In this document: positions 7,443 through 48,783 of the stretch, piece after piece
Layout: the number at the start of each line of letters is the position of its first letter
Position numbering within the stretch: the stretch's first letter is position 1
NCBI GenBank assembly: GCA_900320225.1
Contig: ONRL01000040.1
Coordinates: 1-53,637, forward strand
DNA from: an uncultured Lentisphaerota bacterium
GTDB lineage: Bacteria > Verrucomicrobiota > Kiritimatiellia > RFP12 > UBA1067
Reading direction: 5' to 3'
Length of the DNA stretch: 53,637 nucleotides
The notes under the pieces: model-generated
The model's database searches: none
Seen by the model: only the letters and a program-made list of their open reading frames with translations
What the model was told of the DNA's origin: nothing
Made by a program: the position numbers and the translations under genes

Positions 7443-7478
7443 ACTCCCCCTCGTACAATTTCCCCAAAACGCAATTCC

Positions 7479-7560
7479 CGCTTGCGCCGGGCGGGGGAAT
7501 GTGGCATACTATTTTCGTCTTGCCCGTAAAAAGGCGAGATAACAGATTACCCGCGCGGGT
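7479..7560 (+). repeat. 82-bp direct repeat, copy A, carrying the TA promoter
   Basis: Matches 8420-8501 at 77 of 82 positions. It holds TTGCGC (7482-7487), 17 bases, CATACT (7505-7510) preceded by TGG. Then comes a hairpin (GTCTT/AAGGC) and the perfect palindrome ACCCGCGCGGGT at its end. One mismatch between copies falls in the hairpin and keeps pairing (U-G against C-G). Together the two copies bracket the toxin-antitoxin pair. Confidence 0.85.
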
Positions 7561-7605: not shown

Positions 7606-7860
7606 ATGCCGGCAGCAGCGAAAGACATAATAGATGCGATGACAACGGACGAAAAGGTTCGTACCGTGCGCTACATTGTAACCATGCTTGGGGAAGGCTT
7701 CAGGCATAGTTTCAACGATCCGGCCGCAGAGGAGGATGTGGCCGCGCAACTGTCAGAATGTTCGCGTTTTTGCCGTGAGAATCCCGAGCGGATGTCGCAC
7801 GAAGAAGTCTTTTCCGGTCTGCAGGAGATCGTTGATGCTGGGCGACAAGTTTACTCTTGA
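7606..7860 (+). CDS. Putative antitoxin of a RelE/ParE-type pair
   Basis: 84 residues starting MPAAAKDI, chosen because GAGAGGGA lies 8 bases upstream; longer in-frame starts lie before the ribosome site. No clear DNA-binding motif is visible, but it is small, charged, mostly helical in composition and overlaps the toxin start by 26 bases, the usual antitoxin-first order. Function is inferred from context. The promoter is in the 82-bp repeat just upstream. Confidence 0.65.
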   Translation: MPAAAKDIIDAMTTDEKVRTVRYIVTMLGEGFRHSFNDPAAEEDVAAQLSECSRFCRENPERMSHEEVFSGLQEIVDAGRQVYS

Positions 7861-8140
7861 GTATTCGCCGCAGTTCTACGACGAAATCTCGGACGCCGTA
7901 CGTTACATCACGTTCAAGTTGCGTAACCCTGAGGCGGCACAACGATTGAGGGATGATGCCGAACGGGCTGTCGTGGATCGCCTTGAAGCTCCGCTTGCCT
8001 TTGCGCCGTACTATAAAGATGAGGCGACTGGAGATGTCTATTACCGTATCAACGTTCGCAACTTTGCCATTTTCTATGTTGTGATAGGCCAGGTTATGGA
8101 AGTCCGATGGTTCCGTTATTCACGCCGTCAGTTCCCATAA
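7835..8140 (+). CDS. RelE/ParE-family toxin
   Basis: 101 residues beginning MLGDKFTLEYSP. The family pattern is visible: an N-terminal strand, two helices with LRNPEAAQRL, then the strand-rich end YYRINVRNFAIFYVV and VRWFRYSRRQ. Members cleave ribosome-bound mRNA or inhibit gyrase; which applies is not readable. It begins inside the antitoxin gene, showing translational coupling. Confidence 0.75.
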   Translation: MLGDKFTLEYSPQFYDEISDAVRYITFKLRNPEAAQRLRDDAERAVVDRLEAPLAFAPYYKDEATGDVYYRINVRNFAIFYVVIGQVMEVRWFRYSRRQFP

Positions 8141-8375: not shown

Positions 8376-8419
8376 AACCCCTGCGCCACCGCGCGCAAAG
8401 CTTCAATTTCCCAAAATCT

Positions 8420-8501
8420 CGCTTGCGTTAGGCGGGGGAATGTGGCATACTATTTCCGCCTTGCCCGTAAAAAGGCGAGATAACAGATTACCCGCGCGGG
8501 T
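8420..8501 (+). repeat. 82-bp direct repeat, copy B, with promoter before a structured RNA
   Basis: Second copy of the element at 7479-7560, with TTGCGT (8423-8428), 17 bases, CATACT (8446-8451), the hairpin CGCCTT/AAGGCG, and ACCCGCGCGGGT. No ORF follows directly; instead strong RNA-like pairing begins. Confidence 0.85.
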
Positions 8502-8800
8502 CAGACGGTGAGCAACCGTAGCCGTCACCGCGTTTGGGTCGCGTCAGGGTTAAGCCTCGGAAACTTACTCGTGATGACGCATCAAGAAGGCACTGCCTAT
8601 GTGCAGTATCGCCTCCTTCGGTGTATCATCACAGGTCCATCCGAGGCACCTACCCTGACGCATCGAGGGAGGTGCTTGTGTTTCCGTCACCGCCCCGATG
8701 TCTGAAAAAGGGAACGACATGTTGCGCTTGGTTCTCGCGCCGAGGGTGTCAACGTGCAAGCAACAGGTGCGGGAAAAGTTGAGAACCTTGGATTATGTCG
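8502..8800 (+). ncRNA. Candidate structured RNA: long rod hairpin plus second stem-loop
   Basis: Successive nested pairings: CAGAC 8502-8506 with GTCTG 8700-8704; CGGTGA 8506-8511 with TCACCG 8687-8692; GCGTCAGGGT 8541-8550 with ACCCTGACGC 8652-8661; GCCTCGGA 8554-8561 with TCCGAGGC 8640-8647; GTGATGA 8571-8577 with TCATCAC 8626-8632; AAGAAGGC 8584-8591 with GCCTCCTT 8611-8618 (one mismatch); ACTGC/GCAGT around a 6-base loop. A second stem-loop uses CGACAT 8715-8720/ATGTCG 8795-8800 and GGTTCTC 8730-8736/GAGAACC 8781-8787. CGGTGA could also pair locally with TCACCG 8525-8530, giving a possible switch. A promoter is 55 bases upstream. The rod with a large central internal loop resembles 6S RNA in outline, but I cannot match a known family. 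Confidence 0.5.
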
Positions 8801-8974
8801 GAAGAAAAGTGTGTGCGCATGACAACTATAATTTGTCGTGTGATTGAAACAATAGCAGTGTGTATTGTAATTGTTCTCTTGGTATGGAAAGCATTGGACA
8901 TCTTGGGTAGTGATGCCAAATATTCCCAAGAACCATCCCCTTCGATGACTACAAACACGCAAGGAGGCAAGTGA
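8795..8974 (+). CDS. Small single-span membrane protein
   Basis: 59 residues (MSEEKCVRM...). One strongly hydrophobic stretch (IETIAVCIVIVLLVW) in the first half is followed by a polar tail. There is no strong ribosome site; an inner ATG at 8819 is an alternative start. The stop TGA overlaps the next ATG (TGATG) and the tail contains that gene's AAGGAGG site, so the two are probably coupled. Confidence 0.45.
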   Translation: MSEEKCVRMTTIICRVIETIAVCIVIVLLVWKALDILGSDAKYSQEPSPSMTTNTQGGK

Positions 8975-9654
8975 TGCCAACAGTAGTTCAATTGATTAGT
9001 GCATTGGTGTCTTATCGCGATGCTTATCAGCGGCTTGAATCCAATCGAGATTTTGAGATAAAACACGTTTGGCAGCGTGCGATCTTTCTGACGGCTTTCT
9101 TAATTGCCTGTTTCGCCGGATATGGAGGGTTGGTTATCGCTGCCATTACTCCTAGTAAGTCCTTGATTTCGCTTACGACGGCAAATGGCATTGCGTTCGC
9201 AATCGCATTTGTTGGAATGGTAATCTCGTTGCTGTGGATTATGATGGCCAAGGGTTCAAAAATGTGGTATGAAAACTACGAGAACGCTATAGAGGCATTT
9301 CGTAAACGCTATGCCAGCAACGCTTTTGATTCTGGCGTGGACAAGATTTCTGGCATGAACCTTTTTGACATACAAGGCTATATTCCACCTGACACTTCAG
9401 ATTGGATCTGGAGTACAAAAGGCGGTCGATATTCGGTTTCTCGCATCAATATCTTTATCGGGCAGGCCTCGCTTCTAATCTGGGCGGTCATCCTGATAAT
9501 ACATATACTCATTGCTAAAACATGCGTAAATGGGATTGTGACATTACCAATCAAATCGTTTCTAACCGACTGGAAGGCAATGAGTGTGTCTGTGATTGTT
9601 TCCCTGCTCGTGCTTTGGTTGTTTTCGCATTTCTGTTTGAAGAGCAGGGATTGA
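8974..9654 (+). CDS. Unknown four-helix integral membrane protein
   Basis: 226 residues, start ATG 8974 after AAGGAGG (8961-8967). Membrane segments near 29-51, 65-86, 167-187 and 199-219. A soluble part between helices 2 and 3 (about 90-160) contains MWYENYENAIEAFRKRY and a GGRYSVSRINIF motif just before helix 3. I do not recognise the family. AT-richer than its neighbours. It lies in an apparent transcription unit with the small membrane protein before it and the FGE-like protein after it. Confidence 0.75.
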   Translation: MPTVVQLISALVSYRDAYQRLESNRDFEIKHVWQRAIFLTAFLIACFAGYGGLVIAAITPSKSLISLTTANGIAFAIAFVGMVISLLWIMMAKGSKMWYENYENAIEAFRKRYASNAFDSGVDKISGMNLFDIQGYIPPDTSDWIWSTKGGRYSVSRINIFIGQASLLIWAVILIIHILIAKTCVNGIVTLPIKSFLTDWKAMSVSVIVSLLVLWLFSHFCLKSRD

Positions 9655-9670
9655 AATCGGAGGTCAACTA

Positions 9671-10849
9671 ATGAATAAGTTCAAGCGTAGATGTGGTGTT
9701 ATGAAGTTAAATGTGATTTTTCTACTGGTTGGCGTATTCGGATGGGCTAATGCCTTTGCCGCTACGCCGACGATCACAGGCGTGACGGCGCAACAGCGTT
9801 ACCCATGGAACGGGAAGGTCGATATCTCGTACACGGTGACAGGCGACATTGCGGCGGAGGCGAAGCAGAGAGCGGTGTTCATCTCGCTGAAGGTGACGGC
9901 CGTCGACATGGGTGCGAACACGACAAATACGGCGACGCAACTCTCGGGTGATGTGAGCCTGGAGGATGGAACGCATTCCATTGTGTGGGACATGAACGCC
10001 GAAGGATTAACATTCAAGTCGAGCAATGTGGTGTTCAATGTCTCATGCGAGACGACACCAGCGACATACTGCGTAATTGATCTCTCCCCAGGTGCGAACG
10101 CCGCAAGCTATCCCGTCTCATACTTGGCCTCGCCGCCTAGTAGTGGATTCAACGTGAATGCGTACAAGACCACGAAACTTGTCTTGCGCCGCATTGAACC
10201 TGGTTCGTTCGTGATGTGTGGACAGTACGACGTTACTCTTACGAAACCATATTTTGTTGGGGTCTTTGAATTGACGCAGAAACAATACTCGCTCGTGACG
10301 GGGACGAACCCTTCCAAATTCGCCGGTGACACGTTACCGGTTGAAAAGGTGAGCTACAATGCGATTCGCGGCTCTTCAAATGGAGCCAAGTGGCCTTCTT
10401 CTTCAGATGTGGATTCGTCATCGTTCATGGGCAAGCTGCGTGCCCGTACGGGACTTGACTTCGATTTGCCTACGGAGGCGCAATGGGAATACACCTGCCG
10501 GGCTGGGACGACGACGACATACAGCTACGGCAATTCAGCGAATGGAGACTACATGTGGTATTCAGGCAACTCCAGTTCCAAGACTCATCCTGTGGGATCG
10601 AAGAGCGCGAATCAGTGGGGACTATACGACATGCATGGCAACGTGTGGGAATGGTGTCTTGATTGGTATGGAACTTTGTCGTATGGCACGGATTCCAAGG
10701 GCTCTTCCTCGGGGGCGAACCGGGTGCTTCGCGGCGGCAGCTGGATCAGCTATGCTGACTACTGTACCTCGTCCAATCGGCTCGACTACCTCCCGTCGGT
10801 CGAGTACAGCAGCTTCGGCTTCCGCCTTGCCAGAACCCTGTCAAATTAG
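9671..10849 (+). CDS. Secreted FGE-sulfatase-domain (SUMF1-like) protein
   Basis: 392 residues. Signal peptide from M11 (MKLNVIFLLVGVFG, cut near AFA). Residues 35-135 are a beta-rich N-terminal domain. From about 170 the formylglycine-generating-enzyme fold shows LPTEAQWEYTCRAGT, GLYDMHGNVWEWCLDWYG, RVLRGGSW and FGFR. In true FGE two cysteines five residues apart carry the copper site; here the second is present (C365) but the first is Ser (S360). Sulfatase-activating chemistry is therefore unlikely; a binding or structural role is more probable. Start at 9671 after GGAGG; 17 bases separate it from the membrane protein gene. Confidence 0.82.
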   Translation: MNKFKRRCGVMKLNVIFLLVGVFGWANAFAATPTITGVTAQQRYPWNGKVDISYTVTGDIAAEAKQRAVFISLKVTAVDMGANTTNTATQLSGDVSLEDGTHSIVWDMNAEGLTFKSSNVVFNVSCETTPATYCVIDLSPGANAASYPVSYLASPPSSGFNVNAYKTTKLVLRRIEPGSFVMCGQYDVTLTKPYFVGVFELTQKQYSLVTGTNPSKFAGDTLPVEKVSYNAIRGSSNGAKWPSSSDVDSSSFMGKLRARTGLDFDLPTEAQWEYTCRAGTTTTYSYGNSANGDYMWYSGNSSSKTHPVGSKSANQWGLYDMHGNVWEWCLDWYGTLSYGTDSKGSSSGANRVLRGGSWISYADYCTSSNRLDYLPSVEYSSFGFRLARTLSN

Positions 10850-42029: not shown

Positions 42030-42371
42030 ATGGAAAATTTCACGAAAGGAGATGTGATGTTGTTGGAGAGGATGGCGGATGGGAAAGAACCAGTTACGCC
42101 AGTAAATGGTTCGCGCGAACGGCTTGCACACGCAAGGCCGTTTTGCTATACTGCCCGCCAGACAATTCAGCAACATTGCGTTCGTCGCATGGTGGCCAGA
42201 GTGAAACCGCAAAATTCATCTGCAAGGGCTACGATACGGTGGATGCGTCCGATGGGCGCATCTCCTTTCGTGGTTTCTTGCAAGGCTTTTGCGGGCCTCA
42301 CTCTGAAACCGGGGGAGATTGCGCTCTTTCCTTCTCCACCGGAAACGAAGCAAAAGAGGCATGGAGGATAA
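42030..42371 (+). CDS. Doubtful ORF at the P4 start site
   Basis: 113 residues. The ATG lies one base after the predicted P4 start, as at P1 and P2. The first 20 residues (MENFTKGDVMLLERMADGK) look protein-like, but the rest is Arg-rich, crosses a sigma-70 promoter, and overlaps the KAP gene. Only the beginning may be a genuine remnant. Confidence 0.3.
   Translation: MENFTKGDVMLLERMADGKEPVTPVNGSRERLAHARPFCYTARQTIQQHCVRRMVARVKPQNSSARATIRWMRPMGASPFVVSCKAFAGLTLKPGEIALFPSPPETKQKRHGG
42124..42152 (+). promoter_or_regulatory. Sigma-70-type promoter for the KAP gene
   Basis: TTGCAC 42124-42129, 17 bases, TATACT 42147-42152 with TGC before it. It leaves a leader of over 200 bases. The KAP gene may therefore have both constitutive and sigma-54 input. 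Confidence 0.65.
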
Positions 42372-42375
42372 ACAA

Positions 42376-44331
42376 ATGACATCGAATGTGATTGACCAAC
42401 CAGCGAAGGCGGATGAAGACCGCCTCAACATGAAGGCATACGCCGGTGCATTGACAGAATTCATCGCGAATGCGCAATCCCCGCTTACGATTGCCTTGCA
42501 AGGCGAATGGGGCAGTGGCAAGACCTCACTCATGAATGCGTTGGAAGCCAGCCTTGTCGATAAGGAGGGCGCGCCGTACCTTGGAGTTTGGATCAATACT
42601 TGGCAGTATGCGCTGATGTCCGATGCGGAGGAGGCCATCAGAAACATTCTTCATGGGATAATCGGGCAGGTCGCCGAAGATGCTAAGACGACCGAAGAAG
42701 AGAGGAAGTCGCTCTTCCGCAAGATTGCTCGCATTGGCGGCGGCGTGTTCTCGGATATATTCAAGAAGTACAGTGGCGTCGACGCCGAGCGAATTGTAAA
42801 GGAATTGAGTGCCGGGGAAAAGGCGCCAGACAAATCAAGCGTGGAAGACCTCAAGGATGAACTTGCGCGACTGGTCAAGAATGCGATTGATAACAACAAA
42901 GGGAAGCATGGTTTCCTTTTCTTCATCGATGACCTCGACCGCATCGATCCGCCTGTCGCGGTTCAGATTCTGGAACTTCTCAAGAACATCTTTGATCTTG
43001 AGAACTGCATCTTCGTTCTTGCCATCGACTATGGTGTGGTGGTGAAGGGGCTGAAACCGAAGTTCGGTGCGATGACGCCCGAGAACGAGCGCGAGTTTCG
43101 TTCGTTCTTCGACAAAATCATCCAGCTGCCATTCTCAATGCCAGTGGGTCGCTACAAGATAGATGATTTCCTGACCGAGTCGCTCGTTTCGATCGGTTTC
43201 TTGAATGATGCCGAGAGCAAGAATGAAGACATGAAACGGGTCTTGACTTCCTACGCCCTTGAATCAGTCGGCACGAATCCCCGCTCCTTGAAACGTCTCA
43301 TCAACTATCTTTCGCTTATACGGCTGCTCATCGAGCAGACGGAGACGAAGGAGGACGATGCGGATTTCAAAGATTGGAAGGATGTCCTTTTTGCTTTGGT
43401 CTGTCTGCAGATTCAATATCCCAAGATCTATGATGCACTAGTTGACGAGCCTGATTTCCCCGTTTGGGGCGAGGCTTTCGAGCAGAAAATGCGACTGCCG
43501 AAACTTGAAGCGGAAGAAGTGGCGAAGTTGGACGAAATGGAGGAATTTGACGAGCCTTGGGAGAAAATGCTATTTCGTTTTTGTCGGCGAGACACCTTCC
43601 TCGAGGCTCGTGCCATCAATATTTCGCGTACTCTGAACCGCGTGAAAAGCCGTATTGCGGATACTAATCAGCCCGTGGGCGAGATGGTACAGTGGTTGAT
43701 GCGCCTCTCGGCAGTGACAAGTGTGAAGAACGAACCGGAAAAGGCACAAGAGGCAGTGAACTTCAACAAGTCCGAATTTTTAAAGGCCTTGCGTTGGCAT
43801 GCCCTCAAGATGCGAGAGGTTACTTTCAAAAAGGATCGTTTGTGGGACGCCGCGTTGTCTGATGTCGGTTGCATCTACTCATGGCAGAAAAGGGTCCAAA
43901 CTAACTTGGAATGTTCCATGTGGCTCAGCAGAAAGTCTGTCAGAGAAGAATGCGGTGATTACATCACTTCGCCACGATTCCATATCTTCCATGATGGAAA
44001 GTCATTCCAGCTGAAAATGTGGGGAGAATTCTGGGGAGCATGGCCCAAGGAGAAATACAAGGGGATCGATTTTACGGCTGATACCATTCAGGCCGATCTC
44101 GCTAAGGCTGAGGCGGCCATAGGCAAGGCGTTCAATGTTTTCGGTAAGACCGTAAACTGCGGACACAATCCACAGGACATCTGGTGGAATGTCACAATCC
44201 CAATTGCTTCGCATGATGAACTTGTCAGCGAGGCGTTTTCTCAGAATCTTTGCGGTAGTCTGGCAAGGTTGGCTGGGGCATTCACCGGTCTGCTGGGTTA
44301 CCGTATTCAAACCAACAACACTGAAAAGTAA
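42376..44331 (+). CDS. KAP-family P-loop NTPase
   Basis: 651 residues from ATG 42376, GGAGG 8 bases upstream. Walker A GEWGSGKTS (K49), Walker B FFIDDLDRIDP (about 182-190), LEVLK-type helix LELLKNIFDLENCIFVLAIDYGVV, and GTNPRSLKRLINYLSL are KAP features. KAP proteins are often anti-phage or membrane-associated; here no transmembrane insertions are seen. The C-terminal 250 residues are unknown and may be the effector. It is followed 13 bases later by the zinc-finger gene. Confidence 0.85.
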   Translation: MTSNVIDQPAKADEDRLNMKAYAGALTEFIANAQSPLTIALQGEWGSGKTSLMNALEASLVDKEGAPYLGVWINTWQYALMSDAEEAIRNILHGIIGQVAEDAKTTEEERKSLFRKIARIGGGVFSDIFKKYSGVDAERIVKELSAGEKAPDKSSVEDLKDELARLVKNAIDNNKGKHGFLFFIDDLDRIDPPVAVQILELLKNIFDLENCIFVLAIDYGVVVKGLKPKFGAMTPENEREFRSFFDKIIQLPFSMPVGRYKIDDFLTESLVSIGFLNDAESKNEDMKRVLTSYALESVGTNPRSLKRLINYLSLIRLLIEQTETKEDDADFKDWKDVLFALVCLQIQYPKIYDALVDEPDFPVWGEAFEQKMRLPKLEAEEVAKLDEMEEFDEPWEKMLFRFCRRDTFLEARAINISRTLNRVKSRIADTNQPVGEMVQWLMRLSAVTSVKNEPEKAQEAVNFNKSEFLKALRWHALKMREVTFKKDRLWDAALSDVGCIYSWQKRVQTNLECSMWLSRKSVREECGDYITSPRFHIFHDGKSFQLKMWGEFWGAWPKEKYKGIDFTADTIQADLAKAEAAIGKAFNVFGKTVNCGHNPQDIWWNVTIPIASHDELVSEAFSQNLCGSLARLAGAFTGLLGYRIQTNNTEK

Positions 44332-44344
44332 AGGCGAAACAACC

Positions 44345-44722
44345 ATGAGCGAATACTGCAAGTACTGTGGAACGTCGGCGCGTGATGCGCGGTCGTTGCT
44401 CTCAAACAATTGCCCGAAACATCCGAATGGATTCTGCAAGGGTAAACACGCTCTGTACGAGGGTGGAGAGCGTAGCGAGTACGTGTGCGTCTATTGCGGC
44501 GCGAAAAACAGATCGCTGAGTTCGCTGCTCAGCAATTCATGTCCAAAGCATCCCGACGGCTTCGCCAAAGGCAAGCACGTCGCATACGATGGTCGTGAAT
44601 CCGGACCATACGAATGCAAATACTGCGGACGCGAATTCCGTGACATCGCTTCTATGGTCAGCAATACATGCGCTAAGCATCCAGATGGTTTTTGCAAGGG
44701 CAGGCACAGTCCGGCGAGGTAG
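44345..44722 (+). CDS. Protein of three tandem zinc-finger-like repeats
   Basis: 125 residues from ATG 44345. Three units of about 42 residues: YCKYCGTSAR...CPKHPNGFCKGKH, YCGAKNR...CPKHPDGFAKGKH, YCGREFR...CAKHPDGFCKGRH. Each has C-x2-C and C-x2-H plus a final His, so each likely binds one metal. Appears co-transcribed with the KAP gene. A single-unit relative is at 41464. Nucleic-acid or protein binding is likely. Confidence 0.75.
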   Translation: MSEYCKYCGTSARDARSLLSNNCPKHPNGFCKGKHALYEGGERSEYVCVYCGAKNRSLSSLLSNSCPKHPDGFAKGKHVAYDGRESGPYECKYCGREFRDIASMVSNTCAKHPDGFCKGRHSPAR

Positions 44723-44727
44723 GTCGC

Positions 44728-45004
44728 ATGAAGGTAGGAAGGGCTGCTGGGGTTCATTTTGTCTTTGCCACGCAGAGGCCGGATGAAGTGGTCATGTCGC
44801 AGCCCCTGCGCTGCGGCTTCCCCCCGGACCCATCGCATTCAAGGTGGCTTTTGAAGAGGATTCGCGCATGATCATTGACGAGAACGGCGCCGACCGCCTG
44901 AACGGCAAAGGCGATTTCCTGTTCCGCGATCGAAAGCATGTGCGCGCGTTGACGCGGAAAACCCAATCTGCTAAACTACAGCCAAAGGAAGGAAAGGCAC
45001 CATG
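44728..45004 (+). pseudogene. Frameshifted relic of an FtsK-like ATPase
   Basis: In one frame GRAAGVHFVFATQRPDEVV, then after a shift near 44820 another frame gives GPIAFKVAFEEDSRMIIDENGADRLNGKGDFLF. These are consecutive FtsK motifs (compare GRAAGIHLVMATSRPDIKVV in the intact gene at 37296). Walker A and the winged helix are gone. It is nearer to ordinary FtsK than to the intact copy. Confidence 0.8.
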
Positions 45005-45137
45005 ATCGAAAACACCAAAAACCGCTGGCAGAATCACCGACGCCGCGAGGCATATGACGGCGATGGAAATCGTCTTCTGCGGCTTCTCGGAGCGGGACGA
45101 TCAGATTTATGAACAAGTCTTGGAGAACTTGAAATGA
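45002..45137 (+). pseudogene. Relic of a macro-domain gene
   Basis: Starts ATGATC after a GGAAGGAAAGG ribosome site. After a frame change it ends MEIVFCGFSERDDQIYEQVLENLK-stop, matching [20 protein letters not shown] at the end of the intact macro gene. All the binding loops are missing. The stop overlaps the DUF262 start by ATGA, exactly as the intact macro gene overlaps the PLD gene. Confidence 0.72.
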
Positions 45138-46801
45138 ATAAAGAACACGAACTTGCAGTCAATGACATTCCTCATACCCTTTTTTCTATTCCACACTACC
45201 AACGTGGATATCGGTGGACGGACAAGGAAGTCGAAGCGTTGTTAAATGACCTGCTTGCGTTCGCTAAAAGCGGTACACGAGAGGCATCATACTGTCTTCA
45301 ACCATTAGTGTTGCAAGAGATAGCAGACGGACAACTACGTGTCGTGGACGGCCAACAGCGGCTAACTACGCTTGCCATCATTCTTCAGTCACTTGGTGTG
45401 GAGACGCACTGGGATATCAAGTACACGGCGGAGGGAGGCCGCCAACTAAAAGATCTTTTGAAGAATCCAGGAGAATCAATCAACGACCACTTCAGGAATA
45501 AGGCAGGGGAGAAGGTACGGGATTGGTTGATCAAGGATTCTTCGCGTGCCGACAACTTGCGTCGAGTGTTGCGGGGAAAAGATGGTAAGTGCGTCGTGTT
45601 TCTTCTGTACGATCTTTCCAAGATTGAAGACCCTGAGGCAGACAAAAGCGAAGGCCATGATGCCTTCCAACGTTTGAACGCAGGGAAAACGGCACTTACT
45701 TCTTCCGAATTGATCCGGGCGCTGTACATGGAATCCGGAAACGGGCTGGATGACGGCGAAAAAGCCGACATCGCAAAGGAGTGGGACTTGATCGAGTCGG
45801 CTATGACTGACGAGTCGTTCTGGTCGATTTGGAACAATAGCCGTTTCCGTGATGTTCCTACGCGAATGGACTTTTTGTTTTCGATCATTTTGGACGTAGA
45901 TCCCGAAAAAGCGAGACAGGATACGCTGTTTGTTTACCGTACTCTTGAAGAGTCTGTATTGAAGCATTGCGCTGGCCTCGAAAACGCAGCTGAACTGCGT
46001 AAGATGTGGGAAGAAACGCTTAGATGCTGGTGGTGGATGCAGTCTTGCCACGCCGATATTGAGACTCGCCACCTGATAGGCTGGTTGTCGCTTTTCACGG
46101 ATCGTGAAACGCGCGTGATGTACCATGAACAATGGAAAGTAGATGCAGGATGTAGGCTGAAGACCTTCAAGATCGGTCTTCGCCGACTTGTTGCTGGTAG
46201 CATTGGGGATGCTGACTTCGATTCGTTCCGGTACGACAGCTGTGATTCTGGGACTCTTCGCGAGATGTTTGTTCTCCTAAATATACTGGAGGCGGAGCGC
46301 CGCGGAACGAGCTTTAGTTTTGACGATTATAGAAAATGCGCGTGGGATGTCGAGCACATTGCCTCGCAAACGGACAACCCTCTCGAAAGGAAAGAGGAGC
46401 GCGAAGAGTGGTTGCGATTGGCCGAGGCTGAGATGTCCGAAAACGAGAAGGAGGCGTTGACACAATGTGCAACCTTCGCCGAGAAGTGGAAGACGGTCTG
46501 GGATAGATTTACGGGCCAGGGTGACACAGTTTCAGACAAGGACAGTATGGGGAACTTGGCCCTACTTGATTCCGGCACAAATCGGAGCTATAAGAATGCC
46601 ATTTTCCCGGCTAAGCGCAGAATGCTTCTTCTTGAATGCCCCCCAAAGGTTTACGTCCCGCCGGCAACGGCGGCAGCTTTTGCCAAAACCTACTCGCCAG
46701 CTGCGGCACAGATGCGATATTGGAGTAATTCAGACTCTGTGAAGTATCATAAGGCGATGAAGGATTTGTTCGATGGTTTCATGCGCAAGGCGAGGAGCTG
46801 A
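45134..46801 (+). CDS. DUF262/DUF1524 (GmrSD-like) endonuclease
   Basis: 555 residues. N-terminal DUF262 with YQRGYRW (22-28) and DGQQRLTTL (72-80), the ParB-like nucleotide-binding motif. C-terminal DUF1524 HNH nuclease: WDVEHI (H408) and SMGNLALLDSGTNRSYKNAIFPAKR. Resembles GmrSD type IV enzymes that cut modified phage DNA in an NTP-dependent way. Lower GC than the core genome, so probably acquired. Only two bases separate it from the second DUF262 gene. Confidence 0.88.
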   Translation: MNKEHELAVNDIPHTLFSIPHYQRGYRWTDKEVEALLNDLLAFAKSGTREASYCLQPLVLQEIADGQLRVVDGQQRLTTLAIILQSLGVETHWDIKYTAEGGRQLKDLLKNPGESINDHFRNKAGEKVRDWLIKDSSRADNLRRVLRGKDGKCVVFLLYDLSKIEDPEADKSEGHDAFQRLNAGKTALTSSELIRALYMESGNGLDDGEKADIAKEWDLIESAMTDESFWSIWNNSRFRDVPTRMDFLFSIILDVDPEKARQDTLFVYRTLEESVLKHCAGLENAAELRKMWEETLRCWWWMQSCHADIETRHLIGWLSLFTDRETRVMYHEQWKVDAGCRLKTFKIGLRRLVAGSIGDADFDSFRYDSCDSGTLREMFVLLNILEAERRGTSFSFDDYRKCAWDVEHIASQTDNPLERKEEREEWLRLAEAEMSENEKEALTQCATFAEKWKTVWDRFTGQGDTVSDKDSMGNLALLDSGTNRSYKNAIFPAKRRMLLLECPPKVYVPPATAAAFAKTYSPAAAQMRYWSNSDSVKYHKAMKDLFDGFMRKARS

Positions 46802-46803
46802 AA

Positions 46804-48783
46804 ATGAGCGAGACATTCACACTGGAAAGGTTGTTTGAGGCATTCCCTGGAGGAATCCGCGTCCCGCGTATCCAACGTGGATACGTGCAGGGCCGTGACG
46901 ATGAGAAAGGCAAAGAAATCCGTGCGAATTTCGTGCCAACGCTCGTTGACGCGGTATTCGAAGGGAAGGACCTAACGCTGGATTTTATCTATGGGGTCGC
47001 GGGTAGCGATGGCGAGGGGAGGCGATGCTTGTTGCCGTTAGACGGGCAGCAACGCCTCACGACGTTGTTCCTACTAGCTTGGCTGTGCGGGAAATGGAAT
47101 CGAGAGTGGCATTTCTCCTACGAATCAAGACGAATCCCGCAGTTGTTTGTCGCGGGTTTGATGGCACATTCCTACATGGGTACAGACAAGCCATCTGCAA
47201 AAATCGAAAATGAGAGCTGGTTTCTGCCTGTTTGGAAAGATGACCCGACAGTTGCGGGCATGTTGCTAATGTTGGATGCCTTGCATGATGCTATTGATGT
47301 CATCAAGGTTCGTGATTGTTCGCAGGCCGATCTTGGACGAATCACGTTTTTGTTGCACGGGATTGAAGGAAGAGACGAAACATTTGACCACATTTTTCGA
47401 AAGATGAATGCACGTGGGAAAGAACTCTCTCCATGGGAGAACTTGAAGGCTATGCTTGACAAGTATTTGCCAAATTCACTGGCAGATGTATGGAGAGTGA
47501 AAATTGATGGCGAATGGTCCGAGGCGATTTGGAAACATGCCGATGGTGTTATTGCCAAGTTGGACAATGCGATGGAAAAAATCGTCCGAATGGCGTATGC
47601 ACGATGTGCAGGGGTTGAGGCTCAGAAAGATAGTCTCTGGGACATCGAGATGAGAATTTGTGGAAAATTGGATGAAAGAGAAAGAAGTTGTCTGGGATTT
47701 TCCTCTGAAATGGTTGAGAAGTTCTTTCAGATTGCGTCAAGATATTTTGAAGGACTAGAACAGACGGCCCCTCGGTGGACGGCAGGCAGGGCAGCAAATG
47801 CACTTTGGGGCGGTTCGTCCGATGGTGGCGAGTTCTGGAATTGGCTTTCCAATGGGAATATTGCCTCGATAAAGGACTTATTGAGAATGTCCTTTCTCAC
47901 GGAACCGACGGAAGTTTCTGATGCTGAGCGTCGCCGCCGTGTATTGCTCAATCTGCTGGACGCAACAACAGGGATCAACGGCGAAAACTTTAGTCATGCG
48001 TTGTCAATTGCGTTGGATTATCTCGTTGGAGAACTAGATATTATTGGAATCGGTGAACGCAAGGCTGGTTTTTCCACAGAACAGTTAGAGGATGAGAAAC
48101 GTAAGTGGAAGCTGGATGCGTCTCGTATCGTGGAAGTCGAGAAAGATGAACTGGTCTATCATGGGAGCCTAAGGTTCATCGGTTGGGCCGATTTTAAGAA
48201 CGAGGATGATGTCTGCAGGCGATTGGAAAGTATCCGTTCTGGCATACGCAACGATTGGATTGGTTTCTACTGCAATCTCGCGGCGCGTATTTCAGAAGAT
48301 GCCATCGGTGAAAGAGAGTATGTCCATACTCCTGTTCGCCAAGATGACATTGCCACATGGCGTGATAAAATACTGTCCAGCAGATATTTCATTAAGGCGC
48401 TTGTCTCTTGGCATGCATCATCTGCCGTTCCGGAGACAATACCATATTGGGTGATTCATCTTTGCGAACTGCTTTCCAAAGGGAAGGCCGAATACTCATC
48501 TCTGCGGAAATTCGACGGCTGGATGTTTCTGCTTCAGAACAAGGAGAGGCGGTCACCCTCTGGGAAAAGCATTCGCCTCGACTATAACGACAAAGAACGC
48601 TCCAACCGACAGCTGTTGAAGGACGGCGAGATATACTATGCTAACCCGTGGCCATGGGTGGAAGCGAAAGATGGCGGCGAATGGTTTAACGTTTGCCATG
48701 AAACTTGGTGGACGTGCGTTAATCCGCCGCATGTGCCGCGCAATGCTGACGGTACATTCCCTGAAACAACGAATAGTATGTAA
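46804..48783 (+). CDS. Second DUF262 protein without recognisable HNH
   Basis: 659 residues. DUF262 motifs IQRGYVQG (23-30) and LDGQQRLTTL (79-88) are intact, with FRKMNARGKELSPWENLKAM, the usual second DUF262 signature. The C-terminal half shows no HNH motif but has a Trp-rich end. Encoded with the first DUF262 as an obligate-looking pair: one carries the nuclease, the other perhaps recognition. Its stop overlaps a PLD relic start (TAATG). Confidence 0.85.
   Translation: MSETFTLERLFEAFPGGIRVPRIQRGYVQGRDDEKGKEIRANFVPTLVDAVFEGKDLTLDFIYGVAGSDGEGRRCLLPLDGQQRLTTLFLLAWLCGKWNREWHFSYESRRIPQLFVAGLMAHSYMGTDKPSAKIENESWFLPVWKDDPTVAGMLLMLDALHDAIDVIKVRDCSQADLGRITFLLHGIEGRDETFDHIFRKMNARGKELSPWENLKAMLDKYLPNSLADVWRVKIDGEWSEAIWKHADGVIAKLDNAMEKIVRMAYARCAGVEAQKDSLWDIEMRICGKLDERERSCLGFSSEMVEKFFQIASRYFEGLEQTAPRWTAGRAANALWGGSSDGGEFWNWLSNGNIASIKDLLRMSFLTEPTEVSDAERRRRVLLNLLDATTGINGENFSHALSIALDYLVGELDIIGIGERKAGFSTEQLEDEKRKWKLDASRIVEVEKDELVYHGSLRFIGWADFKNEDDVCRRLESIRSGIRNDWIGFYCNLAARISEDAIGEREYVHTPVRQDDIATWRDKILSSRYFIKALVSWHASSAVPETIPYWVIHLCELLSKGKAEYSSLRKFDGWMFLLQNKERRSPSGKSIRLDYNDKERSNRQLLKDGEIYYANPWPWVEAKDGGEWFNVCHETWWTCVNPPHVPRNADGTFPETTNSM

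Follow-up and report, generated by a model that had tools for sequence, protein, structure and literature searches.

A family of structured leader RNAs with mutually exclusive conserved pairings, found mainly upstream of surface-protein genes in uncultured Kiritimatiellae and their relatives

Introduction

In a 53,637-nucleotide stretch of DNA from an uncultured Lentisphaerota bacterium (hereafter the window), which is part of a 5.2 Mb MAG with 95% completeness, the region between a candidate promoter and a membrane-protein operon is predicted to fold into a long rod. The initial annotation took it for a structured RNA that might switch between two exclusive folds, noted an outline like that of 6S RNA, and offered as an alternative that the region is the leader of the operon starting at 8795. 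The locus thus raises the question of whether this RNA acts in trans or in cis, and of whether its strands do have conserved alternative partners.

A structured RNA behind a candidate promoter

The predicted folding energy of positions 8502-8710 is -95.9 kcal/mol, compared with -65.2 +/- 3.9 kcal/mol for shuffled sequences (z -7.8; 0 of 200 shuffles), which bears out the annotated rod. The functional unit consists of positions 8541-8720 together with a 5' helix, P0 (Table 1). The copies of the sequence type to which 8541-8720 belongs (type 1) keep an ACAGATT.CCCGCG motif in the P0 region, and because the helix hardly varies, the permutation test described below gives it a z of only -1.9. Within the rod, helix P2 is flanked by the conserved internal loops GAAAC, AACUU and AAGGU.

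The annotated promoter would start the transcript at about 8458. Its position close to the RNA holds, and a -10 region of the form GG(C/T)ATA(C/A)T recurs in related copies of the RNA, but we grade the candidate as weak because a consensus promoter scan reported none. The block of 88 nt that bears it occurs twice in the window (7473-7560 and 8414-8501, 92% identical) and again at G000:C179:14170 and C178:12142. At the other places the block precedes apparent toxin-antitoxin gene pairs, with a ParE-like toxin at 7841-8140 (Pfam) and, elsewhere, nucleotidyltransferase-like and PIN-like genes recognised by reading.

Toward the 3' end, pairing of GGGAAC with the U/C-rich loop in a pseudoknot is weakly supported, as is the second stem-loop that had been annotated with a length of 86 nt, which we find as a helix in this copy and its close relatives. 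A closing helix CAGA/UCUG (8484-8492 with 8698-8710) was rejected for showing no covariation. A short ORF starting from the conserved GATGTCTGA was likewise dismissed as a conserved peptide, its frame differing among close copies.

Table 1. Positions of the RNA elements and neighbouring genes in the window
Feature	Position	Strand	Basis
Promoter candidate, TTGCGT 8423-8428, 17 nt, CATACT 8446-8451	8423-8451	+	read from sequence
5' helix P0, ACCCGCGCGG 8490-8499 with CCGCGTTTGGGT 8528-8539, variable hairpin inside	8490-8539	+	MFE fold
Strand A; partner C (rod helix P1) or B	8541-8550	+	covariation, permutation
P2 5' strand; partner 8640-8647	8554-8561	+	covariation, up to four pair types
Strand B; partner D (rod helix P3) or A	8567-8580	+	covariation, permutation
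Strand D, CCUCCUUCGGUGUAUC; partner B (rod) or E (alternative hairpin)	8612-8627	+	covariation, permutation
P2 3' strand	8640-8647	+	covariation
Strand C; closes rod with A; final 5 nt shared with E	8652-8661	+	covariation
Strand E, GACGCAUCGAGGGAGG; partner D (16 bp) or F; purine-rich, SD-like	8657-8672	+	covariation
U-rich stretch 3' of D:E hairpin; 6 of 10 nt here are U	8675-8684	+	base count
Strand F; partner 8661-8668, the start of E (hairpin P6)	8693-8700	+	permutation
Possible pseudoknot, GUUUCC 8680-8685 with GGGAAC 8710-8715	8680-8715	+	z -2.4 and -2.0
Second stem-loop, 8732-8741 with 8766-8775, just 5' of first start codon	8732-8775	+	z -2.0, 16 copies
First ORF, 59 aa, one hydrophobic stretch, no Pfam match	8795-8974	+	ORF reading, Pfam
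8xMP octameric membrane protein family (PF24838, E 3.6e-24)	8971-9654	+	Pfam
Secreted SUMF1 / FGE-sulfatase-domain protein (PF03781)	9671-10849	+	Pfam
Second, diverged copy of the RNA	42197-42365	+	R1 36 bits, R2 38.6 bits
KAP NTPase gene led by the second copy; PifA/PDC-S20-like	42376-44331		Pfam/PADLOC

A large and previously uncatalogued RNA family

A blastn search with positions 8495-8800 found relatives in 37 of 98 related genomes, with up to seven per genome. We retrieved 40 relatives, aligned 37 copies without the use of structure (alignment A1) and built from them a covariance model (R1), which picked up remoter copies, both in further families within the same order and in one other family of the class. 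A second model (R2), built from 36 divergent copies and run on a phylum-wide sample of 388 genomes, gave matches in 40 of them, in rumen Kiritimatiellae and their relatives. The copy numbers, all of them lower bounds from MAGs or uncultured assemblies because an initial filter restricts which sequences are scored, reach at least 26 in the 1.7 Mb genome G088, at least 17 in G180 and at least 12 in G077 with R2, and at least seven in the source genome with both models combined. Exact matches to a conserved 30-nt core came from uncultured genomes only, most of them from rumen samples, and those that carry a label are Kiritimatiellae, Lentisphaerae or Verrucomicrobia.

As the initial annotation had noted, no match to a known family is evident: scanned over the window, the 4227 models of Rfam 15 gave none at the gathering threshold; with E values up to 10 allowed, the region 8400-8830 gave three chance-level matches, all far below the cut-offs. 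A literature search found no account of such a leader RNA family. The segment 8541-8720 is thus one copy of a large structured-RNA family that was previously uncatalogued. The sole Rfam match above its cut-off lies outside the RNA, at L187 2826-2883 (G000:C322), and is to group II intron domain V (RF00029, 43 bits), although no RVT_1 domain was found in the genome. Three copies (L060, L062 and L069) are truncated and have no 5' half of the rod, yet still stand 5' of genes; they are possibly decayed, or locked permanently in one state.

The suggested likeness to 6S RNA fared poorly. A trans-acting small RNA of this kind would agree with the rod outline and with a promoter candidate of its own, but the 6S model RF00013 has no match in 8400-8830, either at the gathering threshold or at E values up to 10, and the source genome's only 6S-like candidate is found elsewhere (G000:C159:22841-22995, 41 bits against a cut-off of 46.4). 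Instead of a single trans-acting gene per genome, there are many copies, each a short distance 5' of a gene. We therefore rejected 6S RNA and consider any trans-acting small RNA scarcely credible here.

Covariation of the rod

RNAalifold predicted 32 pairs on alignment A1, of which 17 are changed on both sides. Helix P1 (A:C) is paired in 97% of cases and has double changes at seven of its ten pairs, with 78 double-change cells compared with 21 in shuffles, and the signal collapses when the register is slid. We also asked, over 96 copies, how the duplex energy of two strands from one copy compares with that of strands dealt among copies, separately for type 1 (n = 47, including the copy at 8541-8720) and for the other types (n = 49). 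This permutation test, which removes relatedness only partly but leaves matched controls flat, gave z values for type 1 and the other types of -19 and -22.9 for A:C, -12.5 and -16.9 for P2, -3.5 and -9.1 for B:D, and -3.9 and -4.3 for E:F. The control pairings A:F, B:F, C:D and A:D gave no signal in the same test on the same 96 copies. A structured RNA is accordingly supported by massive covariation, and the compensatory changes that the earlier reading called for are present in the homologs.

Alternative pairings of the same strands

Reading the copies side by side, we saw that single strands have more than one partner, and then tested these pairings. The permutation test gave z values of -5.5 (type 1) and -2.5 (other types) for A:B, and of -3.9 and -10.6 for D:E. 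By a count of complementary bases, the tail of A matches both C (z about 12) and B (z about 5), as opposed to a decoy (-0.6), and the result is unchanged when each tail is counted once. D:E is paired in 94-96% of cases. In A5, a structure-free alignment of divergent copies, it comprises 14 pairs (94% paired), ten of them with double changes; the double-change cells number 40, compared with 12.5 in shuffles, the covariation is 0.41, compared with 0.28, and pairing falls to 49-63% when the register is slid. A:B is paired in 91% (covariation 0.234 against 0.152), and by eye even the most divergent copies keep it with different letters, such as GCGUC/GACGC, GUCGUC/GACGAC, GGCUC/GAGCC and GGUUU/AAACC. 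In type 1, including the copy at 8541-8720, D:E covaries little and has about 16 bp.

The set A:C, B:D and E:F and the set A:B and D:E are mutually exclusive, conserved pairings, since four of the strands (A, B, D and E) have two partners apiece and C overlaps E by five bases. The idea of two exclusive folds is thus supported, but with strands other than those first named. The two identical CGTCACCGC segments do lie at 8523-8531 and 8685-8693, with CGGTGA at 8506-8511; of the two proposed pairings, the near one has modest support (z -2.4) and the far one is not conserved in relatives (z +0.8), so we rejected CGGTGA as a conserved switch.

Downstream of D:E, located from the core of this stem, a U-rich stretch (at least five U in ten positions) is present in 82 of 95 copies, compared with 6.6% of background decamers, and it is about as frequent in type 1 (40 of 47) as in the other types (42 of 48). 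A longest U-run of four or more is found in 35 of the 48 divergent-type copies and in 21 of the 47 type-1 copies. Divergent copies can have the tail of a textbook terminator, for example GAGAGG-UUUUUU, and the U-run of the type-2 copy L124 is clean; the type-1 run is interrupted, reading CUUGUGUUUC in the copy at 8541-8720. The second set of pairings resembles an attenuator in its anatomy.

This anatomy bears on another explanation, in which the RNA would be a static element of processive antitermination or RNA recruitment, similar to EAR/LoaP or put RNA, whose role would be to equip RNA polymerase with a factor for read-through of long surface operons. Copies do stand ahead of very long surface genes and of glycan genes, and the source genome encodes, besides the presumed NusG, a second NusG-domain protein (G000:C349:4970-5173), possibly an antitermination paralogue. 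Such an element does not predict the conserved exclusive pairings A:B and D:E followed by a U-run, and we regard it as quite improbable.

Genes downstream of the RNA

That the RNA is the leader of a downstream unit is supported across the family: in 94 of 96 copies an ORF follows on the same strand, and the first one starts at a median of 30 nt past the end of the model. By a crude signal-peptide rule, 51 of these 94 first ORFs look secreted, compared with 57 of 232 ORFs (25%) at large, and at least one of the first three looks secreted in 79 of 94 cases, compared with about 58% expected by chance; both the ORF and the signal-peptide calls are heuristic. The targets include BspA-like repeat proteins, very long surface proteins and secreted SUMF1-domain proteins, the last of which turn up repeatedly behind the RNA. 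Of the 20 copies retrieved from G088, 11 stand 5' of genes with a terminal PEP-CTERM motif (confirmed by Pfam/NCBIfam for L210 and by position for several others). The genes behind other copies encode a GtrA-like protein together with a glycosyltransferase, a glycosyltransferase of group 1, an EcoRI-type methylase alongside a GmrSD/HNH protein, or an Eco57I-type methylase. Within the window, the KAP NTPase gene behind the second copy is followed by two GmrSD_N genes in a defence-like operon (42376-48783; Pfam/PADLOC). The targets are mainly secreted or surface proteins and sometimes defence genes.

The C-terminus of the SUMF1-domain protein at 9671-10849 (RGGSW...SSNR...GFRLAR) resembles the variable region of a diversity-generating retroelement and differs strongly between related copies. 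Such a retroelement was rejected, as neither an RT nor a template repeat was detectable in the genome.

The variety of downstream genes, the promoter block repeated at other loci and the truncated copies would also suit a mobile element or a retron/integron-like hairpin that is folded as DNA and merely lies beside captured genes. We dismissed a retron or mobile element on finding no reverse transcriptase in the genome and no plasmid, phage or viral-contig matches; moreover, the strong covariation is of the RNA type, including G-U pairs, and the position relative to start codons is fixed, making this origin very improbable.

A proposed switch

The RNA at 8541-8720 is probably the 5' untranslated leader for the genes from 8795 onward and one copy of a family of cis-acting switch RNAs, which would gate such operons by premature termination or by masking of the ribosome site. 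State 1 is the rod, with A:C, P2 and B:D formed and E folded with F; it may act as an antiterminator, giving both RNA polymerase and ribosomes access to the surface-protein genes. State 2 consists of an A:B hairpin and the long D:E hairpin followed by the U-rich stretch, and would be the OFF state, with D:E as an intrinsic terminator. By computed energies the rod is about 10 kcal/mol more stable than the D:E state, so state 2 would need kinetic trapping during transcription or a factor. The interrupted U-run and the slight D:E covariation of type 1 also count against this reading, and the direction of the switch (rod as ON) is thus a proposal. Most speculatively, a metabolite or protein might be sensed at the conserved internal loops beside P2, and this signal might decide which state forms during transcription.

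A reading in which D:E acts on translation only, with E as a Shine-Dalgarno-like strand, D as its anti-SD and the U-run as a spacer to the start codon, has GGAGG/GAGAGG-like E strands in nearly all copies on its side, and in about half of the retrieved G088 copies the ATG directly follows the U-run. Across the 96 copies, however, the first gene typically begins about 75 nt after E, so that E cannot be that gene's SD, and the reading frame after E varies between close relatives. Control of translation alone therefore seems unlikely to us. In some copies the D:E hairpin may nonetheless mask the ribosome-binding site in the OFF state, as it would in G088 where the start codon directly follows the U-run; that position fits translational masking as well as termination, and both readings share the same gate.

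Beyond this preferred reading, we tentatively raise the further possibility of a new riboswitch class in Kiritimatiellota, in which one shared signal would set surface (PEP-CTERM, BspA-like, SUMF1, glycan) genes jointly with defence genes, those for restriction among them, as a single regulon that could span up to dozens of operons. If true, uncultured gut and rumen bacteria, in which gene control is almost unstudied, would have an RNA regulon of surface and defence genes that extends across the lineage. The conserved alternative pairings specify exact mutations and give a starting point for a search for the signal.

Comparison with known systems

6S RNA (RF00013) shares the long rod outline, but the leader RNA does not match it, is multi-copy in cis, and coexists with a separate 6S-like candidate. 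The leaders of EAR/LoaP and RfaH-type systems also lie 5' of large surface and glycan operons; they are other RNAs, and the leader RNA differs from a static element by its two-state covariation and U-run. The GEMM (c-di-GMP-I) riboswitch is also found in multiple copies 5' of surface genes in other bacteria, whereas the leader RNA has another core and no Rfam match. T-box and trp-type attenuators follow the same logic of alternative pairing, here A:B and D:E against B:D; there is no T-box match in Rfam, the targets are not amino-acid genes, and no conserved leader peptide was seen in the type-1 copies. Riboswitches and terminator attenuators in general differ in that the leader RNA matches no Rfam class in sequence or structure and serves surface and defence genes. 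With them it shares a 5' leader position that is fixed and close relative to the genes, a series of strands whose conserved partners exclude one another, one state with a hairpin and a U-run that is interrupted in type 1, and a conserved internal-loop core.
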